Positions 1 to 61,533 of a stretch of 64,000 nt of DNA are shown here, in pieces; within the stretch, counting starts at the first letter, position 1; every line of letters starts with the position of its first letter. Source of the stretch: Ascochyta rabiei (lineage: Eukaryota; Ascomycota; Dothideomycetes; Pleosporales; Didymellaceae); the NCBI RefSeq assembly GCF_004011695.2, contig NC_082418.1:1-64000 (forward strand). The letters are read 5' to 3'. Position numbers and translations under genes: made by a program. The notes below the pieces were generated by a model, which made no database searches, was not told the origin of the DNA, and was given only the letters and a program-made list of their open reading frames with translations.

Positions 1-84
1 TAACCCTAACCCTAACCCTAACCCTAACCCTAACCCTAACCCTAACCCTAACCCTAACCCTAACCCTAACCCTAACCCTAACCC
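1..84. repeat. Telomere, 14 perfect TAACCC repeats
   Basis: Fourteen uninterrupted TAACCC units start at base 1. The C-rich strand reads 5' to 3' inward, as expected for a left chromosome end, and the G strand would be TTAGGG, the usual repeat of filamentous ascomycetes. The assembly therefore reaches a real chromosome end. The transition to degenerate sequence is abrupt at base 85. Confidence 0.98.
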
Positions 85-3000
85 TCTTCCTACACTAAAA
101 CCCTAACACTTACTCTTACACTTTCTCTTCTTTACTCCTACTTTCTTTCTTCCTTCTTCTAACCCTTACTCTTACACCCTCTCCTACTTCTAAACCCTCC
201 CTCTTCCTTACCTTTACTTACACTTACTACTCCTTTTACACTCATCTCTACTCTTTCTCTTTTACCTCTACTCTTCTCTTCTTTCTCTTCTTTTCTCTTA
301 CCCTACCCTCTTTCCATACACTAAAACCCTAAACCTTACTCTTACTTACACTCTCTTCTACTTTCACCTTAACCTCTTTTTTTCTTACTCTTTCTTAACT
401 CCTTCTTCTTAACTCTTTTTCTCTATCTTTTTCTTATCTCTTTTCTTTTTTACTCTTAACACTTACCTTCTCCTACCTACCTCTTTTTAACTCCTTACTC
501 TCTTCTTCACCTTACACTTACCTTCTTTTTCCTTCTTTACAACTCTAAAACCTCCTTCCTTCTTTTTTTCTTTTCCTACTCTTTCCACTTACTTCTCTCT
601 ACTAACCTCTTTTCTAACACTAAAACCCTAACACTCTTCTTACTCTAAAACCCTAACCCTTTTCTCTACTACTACTACTTCTACCTCTACTCCCTTTTTC
701 CCTTTTCTTTTCTTTTCCTCTACTCTTTTCTATTCTTTCTTCTACTTTTCCTTCTATCCTTACTTCTCTTTCTACTACTACTTTTACTCTTACTTTCTTT
801 TTCTTACTTTCTTCACACTCTACTTTACTTTTCTTCCCTCTCTTCTATTTTCACCTCCTTCTCTTCTACCCTTTTTTTCCCCAACCCTTAAACTCCTCTA
901 ACTCTTCTTTCTAACTTAACCCTACCCCTTACCCTTACACTCTTCTTCTTTAACTCTCTTACTCTCTTTCTCCCTCACCCCTACATTTTCTCCCTCTTTT
1001 TCACCTTCACTTCTACTCTCTTCTTCTTAATTCTTCTTCTTAACTCTCCTTCTCTTTCTACTTTTTTACTCCTAACACTTACTTCCTTCTACTTACTTTT
1101 TTTTCACCTCTTACTTTCTTCTTTAACCTACACTCACCTTCTCCTTCTTTTTCTAAAACTTTACTACAAAACTCTCTTTCTTCTTTTTTCCTTTTCTCAC
1201 CTTTCTTTTCCTCAACCTTTACCTACTCTTCCTACACCAAAACCCTAACACTTTTCCTACACTAAAACCCTAACCCTTTTACAATCTAAACTCCTTCTCT
1301 ACTACTACCTCTTCTACTACTTCTACTACTTCTTTTCTCTTTTTACTTATTACCTCTACTTTCTTCTCCTTTTTCCTACTTTCTTAACTCTTAAACACTA
1401 CTTTTTCTTTAACTTATTCTACTTCTTCCTTCTCTTTCTTCTACTCTTTTCTACCACTTACTACATCTTTCTCTTTTCTTCTACTTTTACTTAAAACCCC
1501 AACCCTCTTCCTACACTAAAACCCTTATACTTACTCTTACACTCTTCTTTATTCTTACATTAAAACCTTTACACTTTCTCTTCCTTATCCCTACTTTCTT
1601 CCTTCTTCTAATCTTTACTCTCTACTTCTCTCCTTAACTCTTCCTCTTACACTCTACCCTCTCTTACTCTTAAATTCTTCTTTCCTCCTACTTTCTCTCC
1701 CTCACCCTTACCTTTACTTCTACTTATTTCTACTTTCACCCTCTTCTCTACTCTCTCTTTCCTACCTCTACTCTTCTCTTACACTTAAACCTTACTCCTT
1801 ACTTTTACTTACACTCTTACCTCTACCTCTTCTCTTTCCACACTCTCTCCTACTTTAACCCTAACCTCTCTTCTTACACTAAAACCCTAACCCTCTTTTT
1901 ACTCTAAAACCCTAACCCTTACACTTATTCTCTCCTTCTTCCTTACTCTACTCTCTTCCTTACTTTACTCTTCTCTTTATTCTACTCTCTCCTACTTCTT
2001 CTTCTCTTATCTTTTTCTTCCCTCTACTCTTCTACTCACAATACCTATTCTCTAATCCTTACTACTTTTCTCTATCCTTTCTACTTTTCTTATCCTTTCT
2101 ACTTCCCTTATCCTTTCCTTTCCTTACTCTACTACTCCTAATCTTCTCTACTTTTTAATAATCTTTCTTTAAACTACTACTCTTTCTTTTCCTATTCTCC
2201 TTCTTCTCTCTTTTTTAAAACTTTAAATTTTACTCTTCTAACTTTTCTCCAAACCCTATCTCTCTTCTCACACTAAAACCTAACTATTACTATTACTTTC
2301 TTCTCTACTTTCTCTCACTCTATTCCTTACCTTCTTCCTAACACATACACTTACTTTCTCACTTACCCTCTCTCTATCTTACTTATTCTCTTTCTACCTT
2401 TCTCTTCTCTCTCTAATTTTTTACTCCTAATACTTACTCTCTTCTTCTTATCTTTTCTACTCATCTTTTCCACTTACTTTTCTCTACTACTCTCTTTTCT
2501 AACACCTTAACTTTCTTCCTTCTCTCTTTACACCTATATTTACTCTTTACTCTATCTTTTACTCTACTAACTTAATTTTTTTTTACTTTTCTCTCTAAAA
2601 TTACACTTTCTTCCTATACTAATATTCCCACCTTTATCCTTACACCTTCTTTCTCTTACTCTTACTTCTTCTCCTACACTTAACCCCTACTCTTCTCTTT
2701 TATTCTTACTCTCTTTCTTACAACTTACTTTCTTTATTTTTTAAAACCTTCTACTTTTATCTCTCTTTTTAACCTTCTTCTCTCTTCTTTTCTTTTATTT
2801 ACACTACTTTTACTTCTTACCCTACTAACTTTTCTTTTCTAAACTTATACTCTCTTTCTATACTAACACCTACCTATTATTCTTACTCTCTTCTTAACCT
2901 ACTTTACTCTCTTATCTTTCTTTCTTAAACATTATTTTCTTCTTAACTAACCTCTTTTAACTTCTTTTCCTTTTCTTCTACTTCTTTCTTCTATCCTTAC

Positions 3001-3682
3001 CTCTTACTTTCTTTACTCTATTCTTATTCTTTCTACTTTTCTAAATTTTCTTCTCAATCTCTCTCTTCTTTCTATCTCTTATCTCTTTCCCTAAACTCTT
3101 TATAAACTCTTTAAACATATACTCTCTACTTTTTACTTCTTTTTATACCTTTTCTCTTCTTTTCTCCTTATTTACTTCTTCCTCAACCTTTTTAAATTTC
3201 TAACAAACTACAACTTTCCTTTTTACTTTACTTTTTCCTTTCCTTCCTCTTTCTACACTTTTTCTCTTCAACCTTCTTTCTTTTCTCAACTTTTACTCTT
3301 TCTAATCTTTCTTTTCTTTTCACCTTCTATTTAACTACTCTTTTATTTCATACATCTTTTAATAAACTAACTTCTTCTTCTACTTTCTTCTCTTCTTTTT
3401 AATTCTTTCTTTTCATCTTTCTCTATTTTCTACTCTTTTTTCTTCGTTTACTATCTTTACATCTTAATCACTTTAAATATCTTTTCTAATACTTTTACAC
3501 TCTCTCTTTATTAAATACTACATTTAACTATCTTTTCTATCCTACTAACACTCTTTTAACAATTTTTTACCTTTTTCTACTTCTCTTCTTACTTTATCCT
3601 CTCTACTATTCTCTTCTCTTAACAATTCTTTCATTCTCTTTTCTTTCCTTTTTTCTTTTTATACATCTCTTAACCCTATCTC
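85..3682. repeat. Guanine-free subtelomeric C/T/A tract
   Basis: By reading every line I find only one G on the + strand (position 3446) between the telomere and 3684. The sequence is a scrambled mix of C, T and A words such as CTT, TCTAC and CTTAC. A recognisable motif CTACACTAAAACCCTAAC recurs near 93, 316, 616, 1231, 1256, 1509, 1873 and 2268. The blocks starting near 89 and 1507 have similar word order, suggesting a decayed long tandem repeat of roughly 1.4 kb. Cytosine falls and T/A rises moving away from the telomere. There is no coding potential. Confidence 0.95.
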
Positions 3683-5485: not shown

Positions 5486-8400
5486 CTAGTCTGCTAAATA
5501 CGACTGCACATGCCCCTCCTCCCAAGCATATAGGAAACGACACATCTGGCTCGCGTCTCTCTGGCCCATCTTGATCTTCAATCCGAGCCACTTGTAAAGC
5601 CGGAGCTCATCGCTACCGTGCACAATCGCGGCGTCTTGCATCTGCTGCTCCAGCCATGGCGTGCACATCAGTGGCTGGCAGGCAAGCAGCGCAGCTACTG
5701 CTCTCTGGAGCACTCCATCGTACTGGCAAGGCACATGCATCCCTTGTGTCTTAAACGCACCCTGTATGCTTGTTTCCTCCCACTTGTTGCAGATGGCTTG
5801 GGGCGCCCAGCAGTAAAAACACCGCGCATACTTCTCCCACTTCACTTAGTGCATAGATTTCACCTTAGACTCCATTAATGTCATCTGCGCTCCGCTGGCC
5901 TTTGAACAGTCCTTCCAGTCGTGGCGCGCCGGGTCAGCCTGAGTGGCCATGCAGATGGCGCACGCATTGCTCCAGCGCTGGAAGTGCTGCTCTAGCCGCT
6001 CCAGGTCATATACTTTTTGTTCCGTCCTTCGCCGTTGCCGGATCTTAACCCTCTGCTCTTTAACGACCATAGCTCGCTCTATACATCTGCGCTGCTCCTC
6101 TGCTGCCACCGCCGCGGTGTCGGCCTGCGTCTCCTCTGGCTCTTCCTGCTCTTCTTCGACGGCTTGTCGCTTGGTACCACCGGGGTGTCGCTCGCATAGA
6201 TCACACTTCGACTCTCCCATCTCGCATTGCTGCCTGTTCTGTCTGCCGTCCATGTGCTTGTCTATCGCGATTCGCCGACAGGATTCGACTGTCATGAACT
6301 CCTTTGCAGGTCGCTCCAGCTTGTAGCCGAGCGCCTTCTCTACCCTCCCCTCTTTCGTTACATAGCACGCTCTCATAACAATAGACTCGCTGTCGAGCCC
6401 CGTTCGTCCCGCCCGGCCGCTCTCTTGCACATATTGGAGCAGCAGGGGACACATGGCAACGTGGATCACCACCCGGACGCCTGCAGCGTCGAGCCCAAGA
6501 CCCAGCATGTTCGTGGCTGTACAAAGCTTCTCTATGCCCAGGGTGAAGCTTCGCACCATGCGTGCCTTTTCCTCGTCTGAGCCCATCTGACGGTAGTATG
6601 CAGAGCACTGCAGAAGCTTCGCAAGCCGTTTCGTCTCGTCCACAGTTGGACAATAGACGATGATCTGCGCCTTGGGTCCGTACCTACTCCTCTTCGCAGC
6701 CACGAGCTCAATAAGTACTTTTTCTAGCGTGCCACGTGTGTACTCTAGCACCTGGTACGCAATGTTCGTTCGCGTGGTGCGTTCATCGCGGCATATGGTT
6801 ACGGTCTGGGCATCGAGCCCTGCGGTGTGCAAGAAGGCGGGCTGCAGCGTGGGCGGCAAGGTTGCAGTCAGGTAGACAACCTGTGTGCCCTTCTCCGTCA
6901 TCTCCACCATCTTGAGGGGGTCTGGCCGCCAGTCCTGTGTCGACTCCAGCAGCACGTGGCACTCGTCTATCACAATACGATCTAGCTGATGGAGCATGCG
7001 CTTTTCGTCAATGAACCTGCCGAACGCCTTCGTGACTGCGCTCTCAGGCGTCACCAGCACAATACGAGCCCAGTACGGCGGTCTTCTTCCATCCCACTTC
7101 GCGCAGGGGATGCCGAGCTGGTCGCAGCGATCTTGCAGATCGTCTCGCAAGGCATTCAACGGAGCCACGACCACGGAGACGCCGCCTGGCGAGACGGACG
7201 CGGGCAGCATGAACAGCATACTCTTGCCGGTGCCGGTAGCCATAACAACTAGCACGCGCAGCCGTCGCTGCATCACAGCCTCGAGGCTTTCTTCTTGCTT
7301 GCCACGATACTCGGCGTCCGGCCGTCCAGCGAGTCGCCTGAACTCTGCCTTGAGGTCCACCATCGCGAGCAACGACCAGCGCTGGAGCGCCTGCTTCTCT
7401 TGCTGCGCTACCATCTCCGCGCGAACACCGGGGTGCATGCGGCCGTCCTCCCAGGCGGATGCAAACTCCAGCACGCGATGCCAGTCCATGCTCACCCGCC
7501 GGAACTCCTCCCGCTCGGCCATGGTCTGAAAGGGAGACTCCATCATGGAGCGGCCGTAGTTGCCCTCCTCTGTTTCAAGGCTGTGGCCGGACTGCAACGC
7601 TTGCGCGTTGCTCTTCGCCGGCGCTTTGTTCCAGTAGAGCACTTCCAACCAGTCGCGTGCTTGTCCATCTCTTGCCAGCTCTCGGTGGATGGCTGGGTAG
7701 GCATGCCGCCAGGCGCGGGTGCCGAGAGCGGTGTTCATGTACTGAAAGGTCTGCTCGCGCAGGACACGGCGTATGCGATCGGTGCCCCAGTACCCGTCTG
7801 GGTTAGCGGATCGTGCCTTCTTACGGTCGGCTTCGCCGTACTCGTCTCCGTCGTCGCTCTCTTCGCTATCGCTCTCGTCGCCCCACTGCTCCTCCGGCTC
7901 TGGCTCCCAGATGAAAGCGGTAGGGCGGGCAACGCCATTGTGCAGCATCTGGAGATCATCTATGAACGGTCGACCGAGCCCGAGGAAGTACACCACCAGC
8001 TCACCCACCTCCCGGGGAACATAGCGGTGGATCGTCTTGACACGCTTGCTGAAGCTATACCCCTTGTGGTACGTAGTGGTGAAGGATACCAGGCCACCCT
8101 CTACAAACACCCCCCGATACCCCACCCTGTCTGCACTGTTCTCGCACTGTATCGAGGTAATCTCTGTCCCGCGACCAGGCCCGCCGCCAGACATGTGAAC
8201 AAGCGTGAAGAGGCCTTCTTTAAACCGACGCACTCCTTTCATGTACCTAGCTACAGCGTCATCGCGCCATAGCGTCCGTTCCGGCCGTTGTGTGCTATCT
8301 ATCCCACGAATGAATCTCTCCCTTAGCAGAGCCTCGTCCAACACCCGGTCTAGAAGCCAGTCTTGCCATCTATCTAGCTGGTTGTCAGGGTGCTTCAGAA

Positions 8401-10096
8401 AGCTCCAGCCCGTAGCCAGCTCGGCTGGCTGATCGACGAGTTTGTCCACAGACACCTCTGGAAGCGGGGTGGTCCCGGGTCGCACGCAACCCCTTTCGTC
8501 TAGATCCAAGAGTAGGACGTCCTTGAATAGCTGCAACCGCACCGTCTCGCAGAGTCCCTTCACCATCGACCGGAGATCGGCTAGCGAAAAGCTCTGCTTG
8601 TCAATGAGAAGCCGATCTCCATCCCACGACACGATACCGGGAGTATTACGTCGCTTTGCCTGTGTTCTAGCTAGCGTACGCAAGCGGAGCATTCGATTCA
8701 TAGGACTAGGTGTGCCTTTGAAGTCGGACAGCGTCATAAACCGTTCAGACATGTCTTTAACTAGCTCATACGCAGTAGGTGCTGTACAAGGGTCTTTCTG
8801 AAGCGCTTTATCTCGCTGGCAGCGGGCATGATGCACTACGAGCGCTTTCGAGGTAGTGATCAAAGCAGACAGCGTTGGCGAGAACTCGTGCGCCGGAACC
8901 CACCCACCGCCATGGTGATCAGGCTTGAGGCCGAGGACAGCCACTCCGCTCAGCAGTGCGCTCTCGTGCTCGTCGCCAGTCAGGCTGTGGTTGAGCAAGG
9001 CGATCCAAAAGCGCAGGCATCGCTCTTCCAGTTTCTCTTTCTTCGCAGCGTCGTCTGAGCGGGCTATTTGCTGGAGTGACACCAAGAGGGCGTCTTGCGT
9101 GCTGGTAAGTTTGTATGGCGGCCGCTCGACCTGGTCATATGTGCGCCACAGGTAGCAGAGGATGCTTACCAGCTTCTGGCTGTACTTCTTGATCGTACCG
9201 ACTCGATGCCTAGCGTAGAAGGGCCGCTCGTTCGATTCTGCGCCCGCCTCACGTCGCTCGATAATCTCCAGTGCGAGTCTGCCGACAACCTCAGCTTGGC
9301 TGCTATCGAACGCTTTTCGTATCAGCCGCTCCATAGCTTTGCAAACATCGCGTAAGCCTGTGTTGTCAAACGCCACTTCTTCCTTCCCACGCGCGTCTAC
9401 CTCCCCACCAGCTAGCTGTTTAGCGCGCAGAAGTGCCGCCCTTGGGATACCTTGTAGGTGCGGGACCTATTCTGTGAGCTCTAGCCACGGATCAGCCTGC
9501 GAACGGATGCCCTCTTTAATCTTATCCTGCGCTGCTGCTGCCTTACGCTCTTCTCGCTGATGCTGGCGATCTGCCTTCACTCTCTGGGAGATGTCTGCTA
9601 GAGTCGCAGCTCCAACGCTCGTCTCGACTGCAACATACGCCGGCCAGCCAACAGCTCTGAACAAGCGCTGGCAGGATTGGCTGTCTCGCCATACTCGGTT
9701 GCGCGAGTGCTTGCTCTTTTGCCTCATATCTCTCCCTCGCTTTTGTTCGTTCACCCAGCCATGCTTATCCTTGCAATGTTTCTGCATGCCCTGCAGCGAG
9801 ATGCAGGTATACCAACAACGCTCCGACAAGCATACCAGCCCGTCTTCTCGGCTTTTCAGACCAAAGACGGGCTCCTTAGCCGGCCTTGGTACACGCACGT
9901 CTCCTGGACTCCACGCAAGGTTTGGTAGCGCGCGTACAGCTGCCGCCAGGCTCTTGCGCGTAGCGACTGTGACCTTGGGATGGCGCTCTTTGAGGTGCGT
10001 AACGATCTGCGCTGGTGGAATAGCGGTGGCACATGGTTTACAAACTACGACTCGAAGTTCAGGCCGGTGTTCAAACAGCTGCGCAAATAGTTCCAT
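5486..10096 (-). pseudogene. Telomere-linked RecQ-like helicase, two RIP-type stops
   Basis: One reading frame of 1537 codons runs from ATG at 10096 to the stop at 5486, broken only by TAG at codon 210 (9467-9469) and TAA at codon 1417 (5846-5848). Both fit CpA-to-TpA changes (TGG to TAG via the other strand, CAA to TAA), the RIP signature. Domains in order: C2H2-like finger (C19, C22, H34, H39) and a second Cys/His group near residues 90-115; a middle region resembling a tyrosine recombinase (R642, R797, H838, Y847); a superfamily 2 helicase with Walker A ATGTGKS (952-959), DECH box (1044-1047), TAT motif and QESGRAGR motif VI near 1224; a Cys-rich C-terminus. Fungal subtelomeres commonly carry such helicases, thought to help maintain chromosome ends. 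If neither stop is read through, only a 209-residue finger protein and a long internal frame remain. Codon use is GC-rich, unlike the RIP-degraded DNA inward. Confidence 0.9.
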
Positions 10097-10393
10097 AGTG
10101 TAAGGAGCAGAAGGGACACAAGTGGGCGCTATGCAACACGTCCGTTGGCCTAGTGTTTGCTATCCCCCGGCATATTGATCGACAGACTGTGTATCAATCT
10201 TGCTTTTGGTTTAATTGCGCTCCTAGCTCTGCTAACGCTGGTTGGTAAGGGCGTTGTGGTACATCCGTGCGCGGCCTGACTTTTGGTGCCGCGGTGTGAC
10301 CGCGTCAGAACCTCAACAACACCCAACCCCCTTTCCGCACAACCTTCGTCCGAACTTCCGCTCGCAACCTCATTCGCAGTACATAAGTCGATA
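10097..10393. promoter_or_regulatory. Bidirectional promoter of the helicase and its partner
   Basis: This 297-bp gap separates the ATG of the helicase frame (10096, minus) from the ATG of the divergent gene (10394, plus). Nothing else fits in it. I see no clear TATA box. Shared control of the two genes is inference from geometry only. Confidence 0.5.
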
Positions 10394-30688: not shown

Positions 30689-33510
30689 ATGGTAAACAAG
30701 GGATTGATCCTTCATTTTCTTCTGGATGCATCTCTAGTAGTCATTGCCAGGAATTCCGTTCAAGGATCTTTTATTGTTGAGTTCCAGGACAATCAGGTGA
30801 GCCTAGACAGAGGGCTCTTAGACTCATAGCTCACATTCCAGTATAGAATTTGTCGGCTTATCACCGTCTAACGGGATCAAAAGCCAACATTTTGATGAGT
30901 TTCGACTATAACCTCTTCAAGGGCGAGTCGATTGAATTCAAAGATTCTCAGGCGGCAGATAAAGCTGCGGATGAGCTTCTAAAGCTTGACTGTATTAAAA
31001 ATGTCTGGCCGAAGCAGATTTATCCCCGACCTGATGCCAGGGTTATTTGGACTACCCCATCAGAGGATCCCATGTTCCAAGTAAAGAGACGAAACACCAA
31101 AGATACTTTTTCGCCACACATCCAAACTCAGGTGGACAGACTGAGGGCCGAAGGCATAACTGGTCAAGGCGTTAAAATTGCGGTTATTGACAGTGGCGTA
31201 TGTATCGATATCATCCCTTTGATAGATTCAAACTTACCCGGTAGATTGATTACACACATCCTGCTCTTGGAGGCTGTATTGGGTCCAATTGTTTAGTCAC
31301 TGACGGTTATGACCTTGTCGGAGATGCATATACCGGCGCCGAAGCTCCTATTCCGGATTTAGACCCCTGGGACGGCTGCAGTGTAAGTGGGAGGCCGTAT
31401 CGAATTCCCTCGTATGCTTTTTGAGACTAACTACTCTCATGATAGGGGCACGGAACACATGTCGCTGGTATAATTGCCGCTCAAGAAAATCCGTATGGTT
31501 TCACAGGTGCAGCACCTGTACGTGATCAATACCTGAGTACCTTTGCCAATCATGGAATTGACGAGTTATTAGGGGGTCAAATTGGCTGCTTACCGCGTAT
31601 TTGGCTGCGAGGGTGGAGCCAGTACTGATGTACTGATCGATGCATATATGCGTGCTGTGGAAGGCGGCGCCAACATCATCACTGCATCCCTTGGGGGCCC
31701 TGGGGGTTGGAGCCAGGATCCTTGGTCTGTCGTAGTTACAAGAATTGTCGACTCTGGAATACCATGCATCGTTTCGGCCGGGAACGATGGCAGTAAAGGC
31801 CTTTTCTACGCTCAGTCTCCTGCCAGCGGGAAGAGAGCGGCTTCCATCGCCTCATATGATAACTCTATCTATCCCATGCTCTTGGTTTCCTCGAACTTCA
31901 CCATCAATGGAGGCGCATCTCAAAACTTTGGTTATACCCCTGGAACTCCTAGGTCCTGGGCCAGGGTCGTATTGCCTCTGTGGGCCGCTTCTTTCAATAC
32001 AACTGAAAACGGCCAAGGCTGCACAAAGTTCCCTGACGAAACTCCGGATCTCTCCAACAAAATTGTATTAATACGCCGAGGAGGTTGCACGATAGACCAG
32101 AAAGCCGACAATGCCGCAGATAAAGGTGCCCGGTATATTCTGTTCTACAACAACATTGGTGGTACTAGTGCTCCGGAAGTTTCAAACACTGGAGTCCTTG
32201 GGACCGGAATGTTAAGAGCAAGTACTGGTGCGACTCTTGTCAACGCTTTAGCCTCAGGCTCTGAGGTAGTTGCGTCCATGGGTGATCCGGTAGTGGCTGC
32301 GCGGTTGGACGCGGAAGTAAACAACAGAACTGGAGGATTTTTGACCACTACTTCAAGCTGGGGGCCTGCATGGGACGGCGATATGAATCCAGAATTCGGC
32401 GTACCGGGTGGTTATATCCTATCCACCTACCCCGTCTCACTTGGGAGCTATGCCGTATTCTCTGGTACTTCTATGGCATGTCCGCTTGCTGCGGCTATTT
32501 ATGCCTTGCTGTCCAATGTCCGGAGGACGCTTGACCCAGTTCTTCTTCACCAGTATCTTTCCCAGACAGCGAAACCAAACCTATTCAATACCGGGGACTC
32601 TACTTTTCCTTTCCTCTCTCCAGTGGCTCAACAAGGAGCTGGTATGCTTCAAGCCTGGGATGCTGCACATACCAATACACTTCTCAGCCGTTCTTGCATA
32701 ATGTTCAACGATACCGAGCACCTAAACAATCCGGTCAATTTCACTATTACCAACACTGGAGATCGAGATGTCGCTTACAATATAAGCTCAATCGGCGCCG
32801 CTACCGCTTACACTTTTTCAAACAATACCTCACCGGATTTCTTTCCTGGCCTGAAAACAGACGGAGACTTTGCTCATCTAAGCATAAGTGAGTCTAAGCT
32901 CACCATACCTGCTTATGGAAATGTAGTCGTCACAGTCACAGTAACGCCACCTGCAGTGGATGGCAAATTTCTACCTGTTTACTCGGGCTACATTACAATC
33001 AACGCTACCAATGGAGAAAATTTGTCTATTCCATACCAAGGTATTGTGGGTAGTCTTAACAGTCGACGTGTGTTGGGTGACTGGACCCTGTCCGCTGGCA
33101 GTACCACGGACAATCCCATCACTACTAGCAATTCGACATTTGTGGTACCCCATCCCGGGAGTAATAATTCAAACTCAAACACTAGTTATATCATTCCTAC
33201 AGCCGTTGCCGACATGGTTTTCGGGTCACCATTAGTACATGTGGAGGCTGTTCGAGTAGACTGTGGGTCGATCGCAATTGGGAATGCTTCGTGTAAAGCT
33301 ATCGACGTCTTCGGCTCTCCTATGCGATGGGTGTCACGCGTTCAGCTCAGCTTCAATTTCAACGGTACACTCGGAGATAAGACAATCGCCCCTGCTGGCC
33401 GCTACAGGCTACGTGTGCGTGCACTTCACATCTTCGGAAATGAGGACAACGACGATGTCACTCAGTGGGATTTAGCTGAGACACCGGAATTCTTTATTCG
33501 ATACAGCTGA
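30689..33510 (+). CDS. Secreted subtilisin-like serine protease (S8A, Vpr-like)
   Basis: Five exons: 30689-30796, 30847-31197, 31245-31382, 31446-31517 and 31573-33510, with consistent phase and GT-AG introns of 47-63 nt (30797-30846, 31198-31244, 31383-31445, 31518-31572). The product has 868 residues. The N-terminus looks like a signal peptide, followed by an I9-type propeptide. The catalytic triad is complete: Asp in AVIDSG, at the second splice junction; His in GHGTHVAG, at the start of exon 4; Ser in GTSMACPLAAA. A protease-associated (PA) insert follows the His region (KIVLIRRGGCTIDQK), and a Fn3-like beta-rich C-terminal half is rich in N-glycosylation sites. The length suits fungal extracellular subtilases of this type. 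The gene shows no RIP damage despite lying between transposon relics. Expected role: extracellular proteolysis. Confidence 0.92.
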
Positions 33511-52479: not shown

Positions 52480-52770
52480 TCAATATCGCCCTGGTAGCTC
52501 CACCTTGGCTTCTACGTCCGATTGAACATAGAGATATACTGTATAAGGTATGATAAAGATAGCTAGGAGGCTCAACACAGTCGAGTACAGTTGATGTATT
52601 AAAAGAGAATGTCGAAGCGCCAAGTTATGGTCCCGGGTCAATGCAAACATAGCCACCTCTTCAGACTCAGTAGATTGCCCGCTTGCCATTTCAATGTGCT
52701 CTGGCTTTGTTTGATCCTTTGCTGTAGGAAAGCTATCTTGCTGCAAATCAAATGCATTGAACCGAACCAA
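52480..52770 (-). pseudogene. Truncated UstYa-like N-terminus
   Basis: A 96-residue frame contains a soluble acidic N-terminus followed by one hydrophobic helix (LYSTVLSLLAIFIIPYTVYLYV), the layout of DUF3328/UstYa proteins before their catalytic domain. The frame stops at 52480. In the +1 frame the sequence continues open to a good donor (GTACGT near 52454) and a TTTACACAG acceptor near 52416, then about 19 more codons, so a frameshift has probably cut the gene. No HxxHC motif remains. It sits at the left border of the RiPP-like cluster. Confidence 0.45.
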
Positions 52771-53042
52771 TCGTGATTATTGATCGAGTCATGATCTTCA
52801 TTGATTCAATCGATTTACTTTCCCTTTCGGTTGTGCCGGATCAGTGGTCACATGCTCCGGTTCTTCGGTTCTGGTTCCGGTTTTCCGGAACATGACAACA
52901 GACGATACCGCAGGCAACCAATATTCTTCACACCTTCTTTAAAGCATTCTACATAGCTCACACTATCCCTGTGCGCTTCATAAAATATTCTTAGTCTTTC
53001 ACAACTTTCTTCTTAAAAAAATATTGAGTTTTCAATTCTGCA

Positions 53043-54215
53043 ATGGCGGACAGTGTGCTGCACGACAATGACGGTTCAACACCTGAAAGCAAAAAGCTGC
53101 TCGGTTACGATGACAAAATCCATGAAGATGAAGAGTCAGAATGGTCTGAGGAAATTGCCACCTATCGCAAGAGGCTAATACCTACACCGCGAACCATAGT
53201 GGGGTGGATGTATCTTTGCATTACGCTGTCGCTCACTATGATGCTTGGGGGGCTAATCGGCTACACTTCAAGGAAGTGTTCAGTACGCGAATGTATATCT
53301 ATGACATCCAGTTACTGTAAGTTTCTACCCATAGTCCTACTAAGGTGTGACTGATTGCGTCATGTAGCCCCGTTGCTGGATGTGGTTGAGCTCTATGATT
53401 ATCAGTTTGAGGCGGAGTTAGGTACGGAGAATGCATACAAAGGACACCCTCGACCAGAACTAGATGCTTTATGGGAAAGAATTGGTCAAAGTAAGCAGAT
53501 ACTCGTGTGACTTAGAGTGCCAGCTTACCACCTACATTCAGTTCACCCCATATCTATGCCAGCAAAGCATCTAGCGGAACTCAACAAAACAACCTCGGGT
53601 ATACCCTACTCAGAAGAGCAGGGTGGGGGCATTATGGTCGAAATCGAGGTCTTTCACCAACTTCATTGTTTGGTACGTAATAAATTCACGCGTTACAAGA
53701 CCACAAATGCTAAATTTGATTTAGAACTACATGAGGAAAGTCATATATGCAGATTACTATTCACGGCCTGAAAACCGACCTATCGAATTTGAAGTGGGTG
53801 ATGACTTGTTTTACAATCATATCGGTATGTGCCATCGTCACGAAAATTAGAGCCGAACTGTGCTTACAAGATTCAAATCTTTGTTGTAGATCATTGTGTG
53901 GACTATCTTCGCCAGTTCATCATGTGTGCAGGCGACATCACGCCGGTCACCTCTAATTGGGTGCTCACGCATCATAGCCCCCATCCCGACTTCAATACGA
54001 TGCACAAATGCCGCAACTTCGACAAATTACTCGAATACGTGGAGGAACACGATAATGGAGGTGTTCCAAAGAAAACTCCAGATGATACCTGGTGGCCTGC
54101 GCCGAAGTTAGCAAACACCATACTGGATTACGAAAAGGATTACCCCATTCCATACCATGGACCTTTTGTCAACGACTCAGATAAATGGCAGAAGACACAT
54201 CCCGTTCCTCCTTAG
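53043..54215 (+). CDS. UstYa family (DUF3328) oxidase
   Basis: Five exons, 53043-53316, 53368-53490, 53542-53672, 53725-53824 and 53890-54215, with GT-AG introns of 51-65 nt, give 317 residues with consistent phase. Features: cytosolic acidic N-terminus; one transmembrane helix at about residues 51-74; the family block AYKGHPRPELDALWERI; first signature HQLHC (171-175); NYMRKVIYADYY; second signature HIDHC (208-212, across the last splice junction), followed by VDYLRQFIMCAGDITPV. UstYa-type proteins install oxidative crosslinks or cyclise the core peptide in ustiloxin, asperipin and phomopsin pathways, acting in the secretory lumen. Both HxxHC motifs are intact, so activity is plausible. It lies 4 kb from the repeat precursor gene, with two minus-strand cluster genes between. 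Confidence 0.92.
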
Positions 54216-54861
54216 ACTATCGTTTTATCTGATTTGGCACTGTCGCTGTCCAAGTATATAGCAGACTAGCAACTTTGCTAAATTAACAAATGTCAGTAAG
54301 ACGACGTTATAGTAGAATATAGAACGTACTATATACATATGCAGTGTGTAGTTTTTTGCTATCGTACTAGACACTACTACCGCTAACTGTAATACCGGGC
54401 ATCGCCACTAGCCATAACTCATTCTGAAATAAAGGTGCAAAGCATAATCAAAGACAATGAGTAGGATGTAACAACATCCTTCTAAGACGCAGAAACTTTG
54501 ACTCTGGCTTTTAATATCAAACTTGCTGTTCTTCCTAATAGCACTGAGAAGCAATAATACGCTGCGATTATTCATAGAATCACCTGACGCTAATACTCTT
54601 ACATTCGAATGTGTGAAAGGGCGTAATATGAAGAGAGATGACGTAATAATACCCAATTTTTTCAAGAACAATTTTAATTTCATGATTGAATTTCTCCGAA
54701 CAGAGACTCCAATAAATGGATTGATAGCAATGATATCGATTGCCGTCTAAGAAGTAACTAAGAAAGAGTTGTAGATAGTTGTCTTATACTTGAGCTACGC
54801 CTTACTCTCTCTCAAAACAGAGCTCTCGGAGATCAGCGCGAGTAACCCATGCCATATCACA

Positions 54862-55599
54862 TCAAACAGGTATCTTGATGGTACAGGGAGAATAACCAAC
54901 GTAGAAACCCTCATTGAGTTGATCAAGCGGCTTTTTGTTCGCGTGTCTGAGCTCCCCAAGACAGTGTTCGGTATGCCAAAATGCCGCATTTTCGTCGTTC
55001 AATTGAACGAGACGCTGTGCTGCTCGGTGCGTACGTCGAAGAAGGAAATTACAGTGCGCAAGGTGCTCTTCTCTGGTGGTATAAACGTGCTGGTCAGCAA
55101 GTGTCGGGCCGTTCGCCAACATGGAAAATGCGTGTTCATCCGGAATGCGTTGCTTTCCCTCTTGATCAAGGAAGTATGGATACGGTCCAAGTATGCGTTC
55201 CGGACTGCTAACGTAGGCACGATACTCCGACTCAGTCAAAGTGTCCATGCAAGGTGGGGGAACCCAGTTGTGGGATAGCAAGTCAAAGCCACAGCCACGT
55301 GCTTGAGCTTCGGCCGTAGTATTACCGCATTCCAGTGTAATCTGCTCGTATCGTACGGGTGCTGGGCGTGCGTGAAGAGTAGTTCGCCATGCAGTAACCC
55401 CCAAGATCCAAAAGCAGAGGAGTCCAGCAATGGCGATGATGGCATTCCGAATTGTCTTGACCCAGTTTCTACTGGTTGTGTCCAGATGACCATCTTCCTC
55501 GAACTTTCTAGCTTCCGCTTCAGCTAGTGACTGTGCCTCCGATTCGGCATCGCTCCCAAAGACAGGTTGATATGCAGTTTTCAATTTGTGTAGCCACAT
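54862..55599 (-). CDS. Small membrane HxxHC protein, phomopsin-accessory-like
   Basis: A single-exon gene of 245 residues with a true ATG at 55599. It has a cytosolic N-terminus (about 1-48), one transmembrane helix (about 50-70, IRNAIIAIAGLLCFWILGVTAW), then a lumenal domain with CGNTTAEAQARGCGFD, NWVPPPC, and two motifs spaced as in UstYa relatives: HLAHC and HTEHC. From memory, the CGN..EA...GC.FD pattern occurs in small membrane proteins found with phomopsin-type RiPP clusters; this needs a profile search. It is divergently arranged with the transporter's 3' end 0.6 kb away and convergent with the UstYa gene. Likely function: a second oxidase or accessory factor for peptide maturation. 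Confidence 0.85.
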   Translation of the reverse strand: MWLHKLKTAYQPVFGSDAESEAQSLAEAEARKFEEDGHLDTTSRNWVKTIRNAIIAIAGLLCFWILGVTAWRTTLHARPAPVRYEQITLECGNTTAEAQARGCGFDLLSHNWVPPPCMDTLTESEYRAYVSSPERILGPYPYFLDQEGKQRIPDEHAFSMLANGPTLADQHVYTTREEHLAHCNFLLRRTHRAAQRLVQLNDENAAFWHTEHCLGELRHANKKPLDQLNEGFYVGYSPCTIKIPV

Positions 55600-56232
55600 T
55601 CTTCCAGAAAGATGTTGTTAATTTCGTACAGGCTCCAAAATGATGTTAATGGAATGGAGTTGACGGTCTTGACGATTTATTGAGTAAGTAGGCCGCCTTT
55701 GGGTTCGGTAGACAGAAATGAGCGCTATGAGAAGTCCATGTAGACGCTGCCAATCAGTATAAAAGCTCTCGATGCGTTTTCCGACCCCGATTGAAAAGCC
55801 GGGTTTTTCTTGTCAGCTAATCAGAATCACCGCAGAGCCTGCCGCACACGTATTAGTACACGTCTTCTCGGAAAAGGAGTTTCGGACATTTGATCTGTTA
55901 TTCAATAACTGTGCCAGTGCTCGGAATCGGTTATCGTGTGGCTTTCGCCTATGTCCGGTATCGGGCCTATTGCTTGGTCTCGGATCGTGGAATAACCGAT
56001 CGCTTTGCACCGGATTCAGAGCTCGGTAATGGTATGGTTTTACGATCCATAATTCGGAACTAGCAAAAACGTGAGCTTCCTTGCGATTTAGCCAGCCGCG
56101 GTACCGCTCAAATGCTAGTATCAGTCAAGGTAACTAGCCACCATGCATGGTACAGTGGTATCAAGGAACAGAATCATTGGTAGTAGAAAACAGCTTTTAC
56201 TTTGAGCAACTTTAGTATCTAGCTTACGTAGC
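55600..56232. promoter_or_regulatory. Promoter region of the HxxHC gene with CGG/CCG words
   Basis: No gene is visible. At 55785-56015 many TCGG, CCGG and CCGA words cluster (for example ATCGGTTATCG near 55930, GTCCGGTATCGGG near 55952, ACCGGATTC near 56007), resembling half-sites of Zn2Cys6 regulators. Function is inferred. Confidence 0.3.
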
Positions 56233-57403
56233 CTAACGAATGGGCAAATCCACGCCACTCTGGTCGTTTCCCAATTGAGCTTTCTTATTCCGACCCGTGC
56301 GCGCGAGAACAATATTGCTTAGCAGTACGACCAAACAGCCAGAGATTGCCAAAGTATCAGGCGGCATTTTCCAAACGATAACGTCAACAAGAAGGGATAA
56401 TATTGTTTGACTGTATATCGCTTGCATTGCTCGGGATGTGGGGTCAAGTGAGAGTCCCAAGCAAAGTAAGCACTCCTGTTCAATTTGAGACTTGTCTTCA
56501 ATAAGATAGCGATTGATCTCAACATACCATAGCGAATCCTGCGAATCCCGTGGATATAATCATAACCCACTTAGCAACCCCCATTTTTAGCTTTAAAACA
56601 CCTGGGGTTGTTATAGTCGCAAGTTGAATCAGTGAAGTGACGAAGAGCACACCAATGGTAAGGCATTTCACCACCAAAATTGCATGAAGATCAGTTCCAA
56701 TCTTTCGTACGCAAATATATGACACCTATAGTTCAAATCAGTTCAGGTTTTCCTTTCCGATTGGAGAGATCAGATAACTTACACTGCCTCCTGCTGCGCC
56801 TAGGAGTGCAAAAGCTATGCCAGCAACTCTGCTTTCACCACCAGATTCTGCTGTGGGGCTGAAGATAAAAGTCGGCTTGACTATAGCCAGTGTGCCGAGA
56901 AAGGATGTTAAAATGCTCAAGGTTTCTCCTATCTTGAATGGGGTGTTGTCGATAAAATTCAAGATACAGCATGCCATCAATGGCGCAAGGAGATTGAGGG
57001 ACGTTGCTTCGGTCAACGACAAGTGCATCAGCGAGTCTAGTGTCAAGGTATTATTAAGCTGCAGACAATGATACACACATAGCCTAAATCACTTACAATG
57101 AAATCCAATAACACCGCACGCTCCTGCTATCGCTCTAGTAGCGAGAAGCGCCCGAAGACGATAGGTGGAAGGAAAGCTATATGAATCCTTGAAATCATCT
57201 TTAGATAACTTAAATAACGCTAGGCTGCACAGCACTGCGGTCACAAACATTCGCGCATGCAGTATCTGGAGAGGCTTAACACTGTTGGTGCTATCTGACT
57301 CAAGATGCTTTGCAACCGTGTTGACTAAAGACGCGAGTAATTGTGAGGCGAGGACATAAGTTGTAGCCTTGTTCACTGAATGGGACATAGAGGAGTGTGC
57401 CAT
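56233..57403 (-). CDS. Drug/metabolite transporter (EamA/DMT superfamily)
   Basis: Four exons, 57403-57097, 57036-56783, 56725-56528 and 56475-56233, with GT-AG introns of 52-60 nt, yield 333 residues. The protein is almost entirely hydrophobic with about ten predicted transmembrane helices in two EamA halves. Family-like stretches are YSLMHLSLTEATSLNLLAPL at the start of exon 2 and GLSLDPTSRAMQAIYSQTILSLLVDVIVW in exon 4, ending in a basic cytosolic tail (ARTGRNKKAQ). Relatives move small metabolites across Golgi or plasma membranes. Placed between the precursor and an accessory gene, it is a candidate exporter or compartment transporter for the peptide product. Confidence 0.88.
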
Positions 57404-58226
57404 TCGACGAAGTCGTAATTTGAAAAGGAAAATACAAGGATAAAAACAGATTTATTCTAGAGTCAAACCTGTGGCGTCGATACAGTAGCGGACAGCTGTT
57501 CTGAGTCCGTCCTTTTCATGTGAAAATTGTTCGTTCATGGAGGATTTCGGAAAAACAGGTCTAAGGCATTGTTGCGGAAGTATCCGAATCCGGGCTTTCC
57601 GGGACGCCCATCGTAAAGGCCTATTAGTTTGTGTGGACTAACATATTACTTGAATTGACGAACTTGATTCAAAGAGGAAAAGTGCCTAAAGTTGTGACAT
57701 TTGCCTCAATGTAGTTTAAACTTCTGACTGAAACGACGAACGTGTTCGAATAGGAGCCTCTTTTCGGACCTACTGCTGAGCTTCATGATGCGTAGTTTCT
57801 TTTAGAAAGAATTGAACACTATGTTCTTATTATTTATAACCACGATCGACAAAATCTGTTGCGATTTTACATGCAATGGGTATTGGAAAGCATGGCTTCA
57901 GGTTCATCGAATTTAGACAGAGTCAAGCTGTGTTTGTGCATCGTGACAGAGAAGAACGACTCCGCAAACGTCACAATACTGTCATTGCTAATAAGGAGTG
58001 TTCCCTTGAGCTGTCTATACTCAATCTCACTGGACTGTGACGATACGTCGTTAGAAAAAGATAGATAGACGATTCGGATGCGAATTCTTTGTATTGAAGA
58101 TTTGTTTGGCTGATACAAAGAGTAGCACCCTGCTATATCTAGCGAAAGCCATGAAGGATCCGTGATTATCTAGTAGGGAAGTTGAAAATCACTTTGGCTT
58201 TCTAGAGACAGGAGTATGCGGGATCT
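57404..58226. other. Intergenic region, transporter to precursor
   Basis: 5' flank of the transporter and 3' flank of the precursor gene. CGG/CCG words occur at 57587-57610 (ATCCGAATCCGGG, TTCCGGGACG). No credible gene is seen; the open frames at 57859-58118 lack ATG starts of quality or family resemblance. Confidence 0.35.
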
Positions 58227-58926
58227 TTAATCGTAGTGGCCCTTGTCAGGGACGACCACCTCGCGCCTGTCGTAGTGACCCTTGTCAGGGACGACCACCT
58301 CGCGCCTGTCGTAGTGACCCTTGTCAGGGACGACCACCTCGCGCCTGTCGTAGTGACCCTTGTCAGGGACGACCACCTCGCGCCTGTCGTAGTGGCCTTT
58401 GTCAGGGACGACCACCTCGCGCCTGTCGTAGTGACCCTTGTCAGGGACGACCACCTCGCGCCTGTCGTAGTGGCCTTTGTCAGGGACGACCACCTCGCGC
58501 CTGTCGTAGTGACCCTTGTCAGGGACGACCACCTCGCGCCTGTCGTAGTGACCCTTGTCAGGGACGACCACCTCGCGCCTGTCGTAGTGGCCTTTGTCAG
58601 GGACGACCACCTCGCGCCTGTCGTAGTGGCCTTTGTCAGGGACGACCACTTCGCGCTTGTCGTAGTGGCCTTTGTCAGGGACGACCACCTCGCGCCTGTC
58701 GTAGTGGCCTTTGTCAGGGACGACCACTTCGCGCTTGTCGTAGTGGCCCTTGTCAGGGACCACTACCTCTGCTTCACGAGGGAGAACACCCACACTAAGA
58801 CTTGCTGTAAGCTTATACAAAACATCTAAAGAATCTGGGAAAGCCTTACAGCTTGGCTGCGGGTATAGCAGAGGCGGCAGCAGATGAAGTCAACGTGGCC
58901 ACAGCCAAAGCTTCGAAGAAACGCAT
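58227..58926 (-). CDS. Dikaritin-type RiPP precursor, 14 Kex2-flanked cores
   Basis: Exon 1 is 58926-58850 (ATG at 58926) and encodes a signal-peptide-like start: Arg2, a hydrophobic stretch, and an Ala-rich end near residue 20. A GTAAGG donor at 58849 and a CTTAG acceptor ending at 58795 define a 55-nt intron with a matching phase (an alternative acceptor gives 49 nt). Exon 2 (58794-58227) has a short leader ending in PREA, then 14 copies of EVVVPDKGHYD separated by dibasic KR (after cores 1 and 3) or RR. The stop follows directly after core 14, with no tail. Signal peptide, dibasic sites and a Tyr-containing repeat are the hallmarks of UstA-type precursors and other Kex2-processed repeat proteins. 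All 14 cores are identical in protein although codons vary silently. UstYa-type genes nearby support the assignment. An alternative is a secreted repeat or pheromone-like peptide. Product activity is unknown. Confidence 0.88.
58231..58790. repeat. 39-bp coding minisatellite
   Basis: Fourteen tandem 39-bp units (13 codons) make up the second exon of the precursor gene. Units fall into at least two nucleotide types, differing at the Lys-Gly codons (AAGGGT versus AAAGGC) and in the last units at the Arg/Lys site. The array is prone to expansion or contraction, which would change core copy number. The mirror + strand frame is open only because the unit is a multiple of 3. Confidence 0.95.
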
Positions 58927-59001
58927 GATGTCTGGTTAACTTTGATGAAGTATTGCCTTCAAGGGAGGTATTGAATATTGGTTTTGAACACGCTGTTGCG
59001 T

Positions 59002-59064
<63 letters not shown>

Positions 59065-59764
59065 CAACGTGGTAGCCAATTCACTTATATACTTTGGTTT
59101 CATATACTCAACTGGCATTCAAAAGGAACGTTCAATGCGTGTAAAGGACTTGTCGGTGGTGAGTCCGATCAAACAACGCGCCGAATACCAAAGGAGTCAC
59201 GGATCAAGCAAAGCTTCCGGTGAATCATTTCGGTAACAACTCAGTCGATGGCTTACCACGCCGGATGGCTGATTTTTGCTTCTGGAAAGAACAATCATCG
59301 GCTCTTGAAATTCACTAATCTACGGTCCCAAGATGCGGTCGGTAACAGATTTCCGTAAAGAATTTGGGTCAACATTACCGGAAAAAATATCAGGTGACAT
59401 AGTCTTATCCGAAACGCGCCCCGATAATAATATGCGCTAAGAAATCCGAAATACCGTTGAAGCACAGCCGTTGAGTGTTCGGTGTTTGTCACGGAAAAGG
59501 CCAGTCATGAGCTAACCGATCCAGTGAAGATCCGAGCTCAGAATCCGCGCGAAGTGCACGCGGCTCGGTGAGGCCGCAGTGCAAAAGTGCTGATTGTTTT
59601 GAATTATTAGCCAAAACAAAAGCCTGATTGTTTTTTTCGGGTAACAATCCTAGAAAAGGTAGATAGATCTTGTGCGCATTTATCCACTTACGCAATTCTT
59701 AACGCCGCACCTCGCCTTACTGTTGTTTTTTCAAAAACCTCCAAGCACGGAGACAATTCTAACC
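58927..59764. promoter_or_regulatory. Shared promoter of precursor and reductase genes
   Basis: The 838-bp gap between the divergent ATGs at 58926 (minus) and 59765 (plus) contains a pure GAT microsatellite at 59003-59062 and many CGG/CCG words between 59165 and 59470 (for example CTTCCGGTGAATC, TTTCGGTAAC, CGCCGGATGG, TACCGGAAAA, ATCCGAAATACCG). This suggests Zn2Cys6 control of both genes; no experiment supports it here. Confidence 0.5.
59003..59062. repeat. (GAT)20 microsatellite
   Basis: Twenty uninterrupted GAT units, 77-136 bp upstream of the precursor ATG, within its presumed 5' UTR or core promoter. Confidence 0.97.
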
Positions 59765-61533
59765 ATGAATTGGCCATACCACATTTTGGAACTGTCTCCT
59801 AAGCAGAAATCAGACCGTCGTATGTTGTTGGATCAATATGCGTTATACGCTCAATTTTCCACATTTATACCTCTGGGATTCTTAATGATGTTGAGATTGA
59901 TGCGAACTCTGATGAACAGAGCAACAAAAAAGCGTGCATCGTCATACAGCTCTCGACTTTCATACTCCGTAGATTATCCGGGGGGAACGATGCTAAACCA
60001 ACTCGTTTGGTGGTTGGGGGGAGACGTCAAAATCGCTGGGTACTACTTAGGTCGAAAATCTCAATTTCTGCTGAGTAGCCTGTGGACAGTTTGCTTCTTA
60101 TTTCTGTCTATTAATGAGACTGGCAACGGTACGTTGAACCAACAGAGGAGTAACAGTAGATTCCAAGATTGTATTTCTTACTGACTCTCTCAGATTACTT
60201 CCACCTTACAAAACGTTTCGGCATTGTCGGTACATCTCAGCTACCTATACTATACCTTCTTTCGTTGAAGCGCCTAAACCCTGTGGCATATGCTTTCCAC
60301 ATGTCGCACGAAACTGTGAACCAGTGGCATCGGATACTCGGACGAATAGTATACCTACTTGTAACTCTCCATGGTGGTCTCTATATCAACTTCTACATCC
60401 GATCCAGCAGTTTTGGAAATGCTTTCTTCCGAGCAGTTCCAGTTCTCGGCATACTCGCTCTGACTGGCATTACTGTCCTCAATACTGCCGCGATTTCCAT
60501 GATCAGGAGATACTCCTACCGGGTATTCTTTTTTACACACATCATTGTGGCTTTCGCATTGCCTCCAATAATTTGGTTCCATGTGCCCTACAGCAGGGCT
60601 TTTGTAGCAGAATCGTTCGTCCTCCTAGTTCTGGATCTATTTCTGCGTTCTTTCAGCACAGTTCAGAGCTTGGCAACGGTGGAAAAAGTTCCAGGCACTG
60701 ACTTGGTCAAAATTGTGGCCAAGGTTCCTTCTAAATGCTGGGCACACTTCGCAACACACCCAGCCTCGCACGCCTACCTGAGTATACCAGCTAGATCGGG
60801 AACAATTCGAGAGCCCCTATTGTCACCCCTTCTCCGCTATGGATTCCTCTTGAATCCTTTTACAGTCGCATCCGTAAGAGAGGGAACTAGAAAGCTCACA
60901 TTTGTGATGCGTGTAAAGAACGGGCCACTCACTAAGAGCTTCGATCATCTTACTAGCCAAGATGAGCATACCGGCAGTACCAAAGTCATTGTGAGGATTG
61001 ATGGGCCATATGGCGCTACATCCAAATTTTCAATACTTGAAAGTTCCAGTTTCGACTACATCCTTCTTGTAGCTGGAGGCGTTGGTGCGACTTTTATTAT
61101 GCCGCTGTACGAGAGGCTCATAGCCAACAACGTCTCAGCCGAAGTCAAAGTAGTTTGGGCCGTCCAAAATGCCAACGAAACATCTTGGCCCATATTGTCA
61201 ACACAAGAGAGCATCTACAATGATCCGCGTGTTGACATATATACGACGGGGACCAAACTAGATTTAGATGCTAACGATTCCGGCTCCGGATCTCACATCG
61301 AGGATGTGGAAATGAACATTTGGAAAGATGGACGGTCTGTACCAGTAGGGGATCGACAACGGCCAGACTTTCAGAGAATTGTCGACCAGATCTTTGTTAA
61401 AAACCATTATAAGCGTATTGCGGTTGTTGTTTGTGGGCCTGTTCCGATGTCTCAGGACCTACGACAGGCTGTAGGGGTTTGGGTCAAGAAGAGCAAAGAT
61501 ATCTGGTTCCATAGCGAGAGCTTTGGCCTTTGA
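59765..61533 (+). CDS. Ferric reductase-like transmembrane oxidoreductase
   Basis: Two exons, 59765-60128 and 60194-61533, separated by a 65-nt GT-AG intron, give 567 residues. The N-terminal membrane domain has several helices and the family block DYFHLTKRFGIVGTSQLP at the splice junction. Haem-binding histidines are plausible in the HETVNQWHRILGRIVYLLVTLHGG helix pair and in THIIVAFALPPIIWFH. The FAD-binding site is recognisable by NPFTVAS, and the NAD(P) domain by GPYGA, VAGGVGATFIMPLY and the C-terminal CGPVPM. The protein is about 100-150 residues shorter than many fungal Fre proteins. Family role: transmembrane electron transfer from NADPH to ferric iron or another acceptor. Its divergent promoter with the RiPP precursor suggests it belongs to the cluster, perhaps as a redox tailoring or iron/copper supply enzyme. 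Confidence 0.93.

Follow-up and report, generated by a model that had tools for sequence, protein, structure and literature searches.

A probable biosynthetic locus for an oxidatively modified ribosomal peptide with an undescribed core near a telomere of Ascochyta rabiei

Five genes (A–E) of the chickpea blight pathogen Ascochyta rabiei, packed into 53.0–61.5 kb of the stretch of DNA analysed here, probably direct the biosynthesis of a peptide that is made on the ribosome and modified oxidatively. The stretch, referred to as the window, comprises 64,000 nucleotides (NC_082418.1, positions 1–64,000) and is the telomeric end of contig C14 in an assembly of 40.9 Mb and 23 contigs. The locus is best read as one for a ribosomally synthesized and post-translationally modified peptide (RiPP) of the kind in which a Kex2-processed repeat precursor (gene D) is accompanied by a UstYa oxidase (gene A); its core is undescribed, and asperipin-2a is the nearest known system in gene content. 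This reading is favoured by the UstYa profile match of gene A, the synonymous nature of all changes in the cores, the pairing of A with gene B and the apparent intactness of the five genes, and also by the known repeat-precursor/UstYa arrangement and the four-gene precedent of asperipin-2a.

The precursor gene D is located at 58227–58926 on the minus strand and has two exons (58926–58850 and 58794–58227) separated by an intron of 55 nt. The spliced model encodes 214 residues with 14 cores, each of them EVVVPDKGHYD, joined by 13 linkers with dibasic sites (2 KR and 11 RR). It bears out the 14 identical, Tyr-containing cores between KR/RR sites that a preliminary description, made from the DNA letters, had reported. 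Near-identical repeats between KR or RR sites, together with a signal peptide, characterise Kex2-processed repeat precursors (KEP), and gene D carries such repeats. The cores are encoded by a 39-nt tandem array (58231–58769, minus strand; 13.8 copies, 95% matches). The N-terminus, MRFFEALAVATLTSSAAASA, reads like the signal peptide proposed earlier but was not flagged by the hydropathy cut-off (19 residues, 1.5). On the plus strand of the array two frames are also open; the start, the leader and the dibasic spacing of a precursor are found in the frame of gene D only. Six nucleotide sites differ between the 14 cores, each of them a third codon position, and the six changes are all synonymous (p = 9e-5 if 21% of all single changes are expected to be synonymous, or 1.4e-3 for 33% of transitions). 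These p values serve as guides, since gene conversion may reduce the number of independent events; the Lys/Arg change in the linkers was excluded from the count. The array was not found elsewhere in the genome by protein and DNA searches. A (TGA)20 microsatellite (59002–59061) lies 75 bp upstream of the start codon of gene D, and its length might vary between isolates.

Several database matches of the precursor were rejected. The proteins P0028 (E 5.4e-3) and P0029 (E 2.3e-2), the sole matches at E ≤ 0.1, were judged unrelated by eye: only EVVVP...ER-type repeats are common to them and gene D, and their start reads as that of a bacterial lipoprotein. Pfam matches of the precursor frame to Ribosomal_L32p (5.5e-15) and DUF3127 (7.9e-10), both over the cut-off, and to PRC, below it, were taken as repeat artefacts. 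A match in a viral collection (L049, 41% over 46 residues) was also set aside; the long frames on the opposite strand of its contig read as phage terminase and portal genes.

Gene A (53043–54215, plus strand) encodes a UstYa-family oxidase of 317 residues in five exons (53043–53316, 53368–53490, 53542–53672, 53725–53824 and 53890–54215). The protein has a single hydrophobic span and HxxHC motifs at residues 171 and 208, and the Pfam match to UstYa (PF11807, DUF3328) has an E-value of 4.5e-56, scored on the near-identical record P0030. The spliced product equals A. rabiei ST47_g7533 in length and differs from it in 1 of 317 residues (position 39, Ala versus Thr); being gapless and of the same length, this independent annotation agrees with the four predicted introns. 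Among solved structures, gene A gave two non-significant matches (E 0.4 and 0.88), and a profile of the UstYa family (A2) gave none. Under the broad definition of dikaritins (ust-RiPS) a UstYa gene is expected near the precursor, and gene A is in that place: it ends 4 kb from gene D, with genes B and C in between. The chance of finding a UstYa gene within 5 kb of the precursor is about 0.3%, assuming 14 UstYa genes (the count is ∼15 loci).

The chromosomal setting would also fit a different reading, namely that the cluster is a remnant, silent or in decay, within a chromosome end rich in repeats. TAACCC telomere repeats are present at positions 1–85 of the window, AT-rich blocks are located to the left of the cluster (12–30 kb and 44–51 kb), and helicase and transposase-type frames are found in the window. 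We give next to no credence to a remnant, because the five frames are intact, the gene A protein is conserved in a second A. rabiei record to within the single residue mentioned above, and the core changes are all synonymous.

Gene B (54862–55599, minus strand) is a single-exon gene for a protein of 245 residues that belongs to a fungal family outside Pfam. Like the product of gene A it has one hydrophobic span and two HxxHC motifs (at residues 179 and 209), a UstYa-like trait, and the two HxxHC membrane proteins noticed earlier are thereby confirmed. The preliminary description had proposed a DUF3328 profile check of both proteins and had counted a miss by both against itself; gene A matches, and gene B itself has no Pfam match, so that one DUF3328 protein is found in the locus by profile. 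No match was obtained in NCBIfam, which was built for bacteria and archaea, and a search of the genome with gene B (E ≤ 10) returned gene B alone. In a protein search 27 proteins were listed, gene B included. From these, 23 were aligned (alignment A1), with P0018, P0024, P0026 and P0027 excluded as short or with partial cover of the query; the relatives are 46–65% identical to the gene B protein. Residues H179, H182, H209, H212 and C213 are invariant in the alignment and C183 is nearly so (Ser in P0020); the second HxxHC motif is present in all 23 rows.

The comparisons of the B family with UstYa are suggestive only of kinship. Alignment of the two profiles with hhalign covered 41 columns including both HxxHC motifs, with an E-value of 7.9e-4 and a probability of only 24.6%. 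In Pfam, UstYa was the family most often matched by members of the alignment, weakly so in 9 of the 23 (best E 0.048), and unrelated families scored alike in fewer members (CTV_P6 in 3, E 0.035). In crossed profile searches, with 882 and 567 decoys, 6 of 42 UstYa and 4 of 27 B proteins exceeded the best decoy and the remaining 36 and 23 did not; the UstYa profile was built from 26 of the 42. The profile of the B family matched no solved structure.

Relatives of both A and B were found in five named species other than A. rabiei: Xylariales sp. AK1849, Coniochaeta ligniaria, Penicillium nucicola, Trichoderma harzianum and Cercospora zeae-maydis, the last with partial records for both proteins. 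In all five the A and B records give a longest contig that is equal to the base (1279651, 2829473, 2215110, 1319222 and 137031), from which we infer that the two genes are on the same contig. The locus numbers are adjacent in P. nucicola (N7511_008251/008252) and four apart in T. harzianum (N5P37_006898/006902). Judged by these records, A and B look like a conserved pair, and the fungi that bear them presumably span several classes of Ascomycota. No sister loci were obtained from a scan of genome contigs with the B-family profile or of viral contigs with the UstYa profile.

A number of observations weigh against a peptide pathway. Of the 11 named species in which B has a relative, six yielded none of A, and of the nine (A. 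rabiei excluded) in which A has a relative at 50% identity or above, four yielded none of B; with 358 candidates scored in the A search and a database clustered at 90%, these absences are weak, yet they are still absences. A protein search that scored the 8000 candidates sharing most words returned no credible relative of the precursor, so that evidence of a repeat precursor accompanying the A–B pair is confined to A. rabiei. The frames read included no recognisable regulator gene, with no profile search aimed at one. The missing precursor relative would also fit a locus in which the A–B pair, together with C and E, is devoted to a different product and gene D stands among these genes by coincidence, as UstYa proteins also serve non-ribosomal and polyketide pathways (PMC12048977). 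This is very unlikely: none of the frames listed at 50–64 kb, selected ones of which were given to Pfam, looked like a synthase-type gene, and gene D is constrained and shaped like a UstYa substrate.

Gene D might on the other hand yield an unmodified linear secreted peptide (a signal, a pheromone-like peptide or an effector), with neighbours that are unrelated to it. In a survey of 1461 strains, 1758 of 7878 repeat precursors had UstYa neighbours (an average of 3.09 genes; section 7) and 6120 had none, and Kex2-cut repeat precursors that give linear peptides, including alpha-type pheromones, are well known (PMC7329392). We consider a linear product unlikely, given that the conserved-looking pair A and B is found within 5 kb of gene D and that pheromone-annotated precursors almost all lack UstYa neighbours, with three exceptions (PMC7329392). 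In the same survey Tyr is commoner in the repeats of precursors with UstYa neighbours (65.6% versus 38.2%; section 7).

Two further genes complete the locus. Gene C (56233–57403, minus strand, four exons, 333 residues) encodes an EamA-type transporter, with a Pfam match (E 6.7e-11) in one stretch at residues 15–155. EamA transporters usually carry two EamA halves, and the match in gene C corresponds to one half. The protein had been described as a transporter with ten membrane spans; the transporter is confirmed and the count only in part, since two pairs of the ten hydropathy windows over the threshold overlap, leaving eight separate segments. Gene E (59765–61533, plus strand; exons 59765–60128 and 60194–61533) encodes a ferric-reductase-like membrane oxidoreductase of 567 residues, in agreement with the reductase noted earlier, with Pfam matches to Ferric_reduct (E 2.5e-20), NAD_binding_6 (1e-15) and FAD_binding_8 (1.5e-7). 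By eye, the membrane part contains two H-x13-H pairs, which we take to fit the haem ligation of such reductases; GGVGAT and CGP motifs were also recognised, as well as an NPFT in place of the usual HPFT. Homology searches with genes C and E covered this genome: the closest other match of gene E is 38% identical, and 1 of the 17 NAD_binding_6 matches listed is inside the window. Among solved structures, gene E matched a putative ferric reductase twice, weakly in both cases (best E 2.7e-4). The original five-gene definition of dikaritins, as told in PMC12048977, includes a transporter or peptidase, and the EamA protein supplies the former.

In the pathway that we propose, the product of gene D would enter the secretory pathway, Kex2 would cut the 13 KR/RR sites and carboxypeptidase trimming would yield copies of EVVVPDKGHYD. 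The membrane-anchored oxidase A and its conserved partner B may then oxidise the core in the secretory lumen; most likely the side chain of Tyr would be cross-linked to one of the neighbouring residues, or else the core could be desaturated or hydroxylated. More speculatively, B might serve as a co-oxidase, gene E might provide electron transfer through the membrane, to reduce a metal or to drive a reductive step, and gene C might export or compartment the substrate or product, with all five genes presumably acting together. A more far-reaching proposal, which we regard as doubtful, is that B founds a second class of HxxHC peptide oxidases, hitherto unrecognised, whose members accompany one UstYa subfamily as conserved partners in several Ascomycota classes, and that the A–B pair, with metal or electrons from the ferric-reductase-type protein, installs an undescribed link (e.g. 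Tyr or His to Val) in EVVVPDKGHYD.

Comparison with known systems places the locus nearest to that of asperipin-2a from Aspergillus flavus, which is made by four genes (PMC10512285) with a transporter and a reductase as accessory genes (PMC12048977). In both systems the repeat precursor and the UstYa-type oxidase are joined by a reductase and by a transporter (PMC10512285, PMC12048977). The A. rabiei locus differs in its second HxxHC protein and, with a single Tyr in the core, from asperipin with its two Tyr-based links (PMC9233826); its ferric-reductase-type reductase and EamA transporter were compared with their asperipin-2a counterparts by role and not by family. Ustiloxin and phomopsin share the many repeated cores with Kex2 sites (16 repeats in ustiloxin; PMC10512285) and the UstYa oxidases (PMC7329392). 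In contrast to these pathways, none of the genome matches listed for tyrosinase (26; the nearest on contig C14 is at 148 kb), S41 peptidase (4) or Methyltransf_11 (40; the one methyltransferase family searched) falls inside the window, and the core is not of the YVIG/YAIG/YVIP kind. The label "dikaritin-like" used earlier holds for the repeat precursor with Kex2-type sites beside a UstYa oxidase but not in the original five-gene sense, in which a tyrosinase is expected along with a methyltransferase and more than one DUF3328 protein (PMC12048977). Victorin from Cochliobolus victoriae and the epichloecyclins likewise derive from multi-core precursors with Kex2-type processing in plant-associated fungi and carry side-chain cyclisations (PMC9233826); their cores differ from EVVVPDKGHYD, and this comparison does not extend to gene content. 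KEP type G-8 (Umemura 2020) also consists of repeat precursors, has a UstYa neighbour in 45 of 49 cases and includes Ascochyta among its genera (PMC7329392). Its repeats carry di-histidine, unlike gene D; an HH-containing array of this genome is found on contig C1.

The core, which had not been recognised among known products before, was also not found as the string EVVVPDKGHYD in literature text, and pieces of it occur in neither PMC7329392 nor PMC6339444; supplementary lists were outside the search and may hold the core unnamed, among them the KEP tables of Umemura. Within the same limits, and among the 20 of 2,713 and 15 of 28 records listed, no published report of the cluster was found. 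The available parts of PMC7341154, PMC9366070 and PMC6891577 mention no ribosomal cyclic peptide of A. rabiei, and the ArME14 genome paper tabulates 26 clusters with no RiPP among them (PMC7341154). The fungal RiPP search of antiSMASH 5.0 relied on phomopsin- and ustiloxin-type queries (PMC7099791), which can explain why the locus was missed in that table. A "proteinaceous toxin" of A. rabiei is cited in PMC9366070; nothing in our data ties it to this locus. Loci of this type make anything from a host-selective toxin (PMC9233826) to peptides without a visible deletion phenotype (PMC7329392). A 2022 review knew of no more than five ascomycete products of the kind (ustiloxin, phomopsin, asperipin-2a, epichloecyclin and victorin; PMC10512285), against the 1758 repeat precursors with UstYa neighbours (PMC7329392). 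The present locus, whose product is probably a small modified peptide, adds a new member to an established type of fungal pathway. For a crop pathogen without a tabulated RiPP cluster it supplies gene models, a defined core and the masses predicted from it, with [M+H]+ at 1257.611 for the linear core, 1255.595 after one oxidation that removes two hydrogens, and 1413.712 if one Arg is retained at the C-terminus. The A–B pairing points to a protein family without annotation, which could enlarge the gene set used in mining for such peptides, and it makes the partner needs of UstYa enzymes testable.

The same genome contains further loci of this kind. UstYa matches number 25, or ∼15 loci when counted by hand. 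Around nine regions, which hold 11 of the 14 other UstYa loci (the set leaves out C18:140 kb, C9:937 kb and C21:412 kb), ∼20 kb was read, and repeat-precursor-like arrays were present in three of the nine (on contigs C1, C9 and C16). The repeat-precursor/UstYa arrangement thus recurs in A. rabiei, and the cluster in the window is one of several. The array on C16 (468697–469425, minus strand) repeats SDADAATxYQVG 13 times, with KR sites flanking most of the copies, and has two UstYa genes nearby, at ∼0.8 and ∼2.8 kb; its YQVG is reminiscent of YVIG and YAIG, the cores of ustiloxin. The array on C1 (2716499–2717677, minus strand), with repeat units of the HHKGKGRKG type ∼1.1 kb from a UstYa gene, may represent the di-histidine KEP type G-8. 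On the plus strand of C9 (453057–453904), two neighbouring frames ∼1.4 kb from a UstYa gene hold repeats rich in Tyr (DGYGKYASYGKYG) together with KR sites. A further array on C1, with VSRVKC, was set aside as not precursor-like.

Next to the cluster, an open frame at 52480–52776 (minus strand) had been described as a broken UstYa copy; this is unsupported, as the frame has neither a Pfam match nor another match in the genome. No Rfam family reached the gathering threshold at 50–64 kb. To the right of the cluster, from 64.8 kb, there are sugar-transporter frames and a GH12 frame, which look unrelated. To the left, a subtilase with PA and Fn3-like domains (31573–33510) is found ∼20 kb from the cluster and beyond an AT-rich block, and there is no evidence that it belongs to the cluster. 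At 5846–10159, a minus-strand helicase frame with DEAD and Helicase_C domains, which we take to be a subtelomeric RecQ-type gene, adjoins an OrsD-like frame. At the very end of the contig, the plus strand contains no G at positions 1–3445; the first G is at 3446, and G is common from ∼3684. This strand-asymmetric tract, which adjoins the telomere, consists of 85 bases of telomere repeat followed by irregular C/T/A sequence with scattered telomere-like AACCCTAA.

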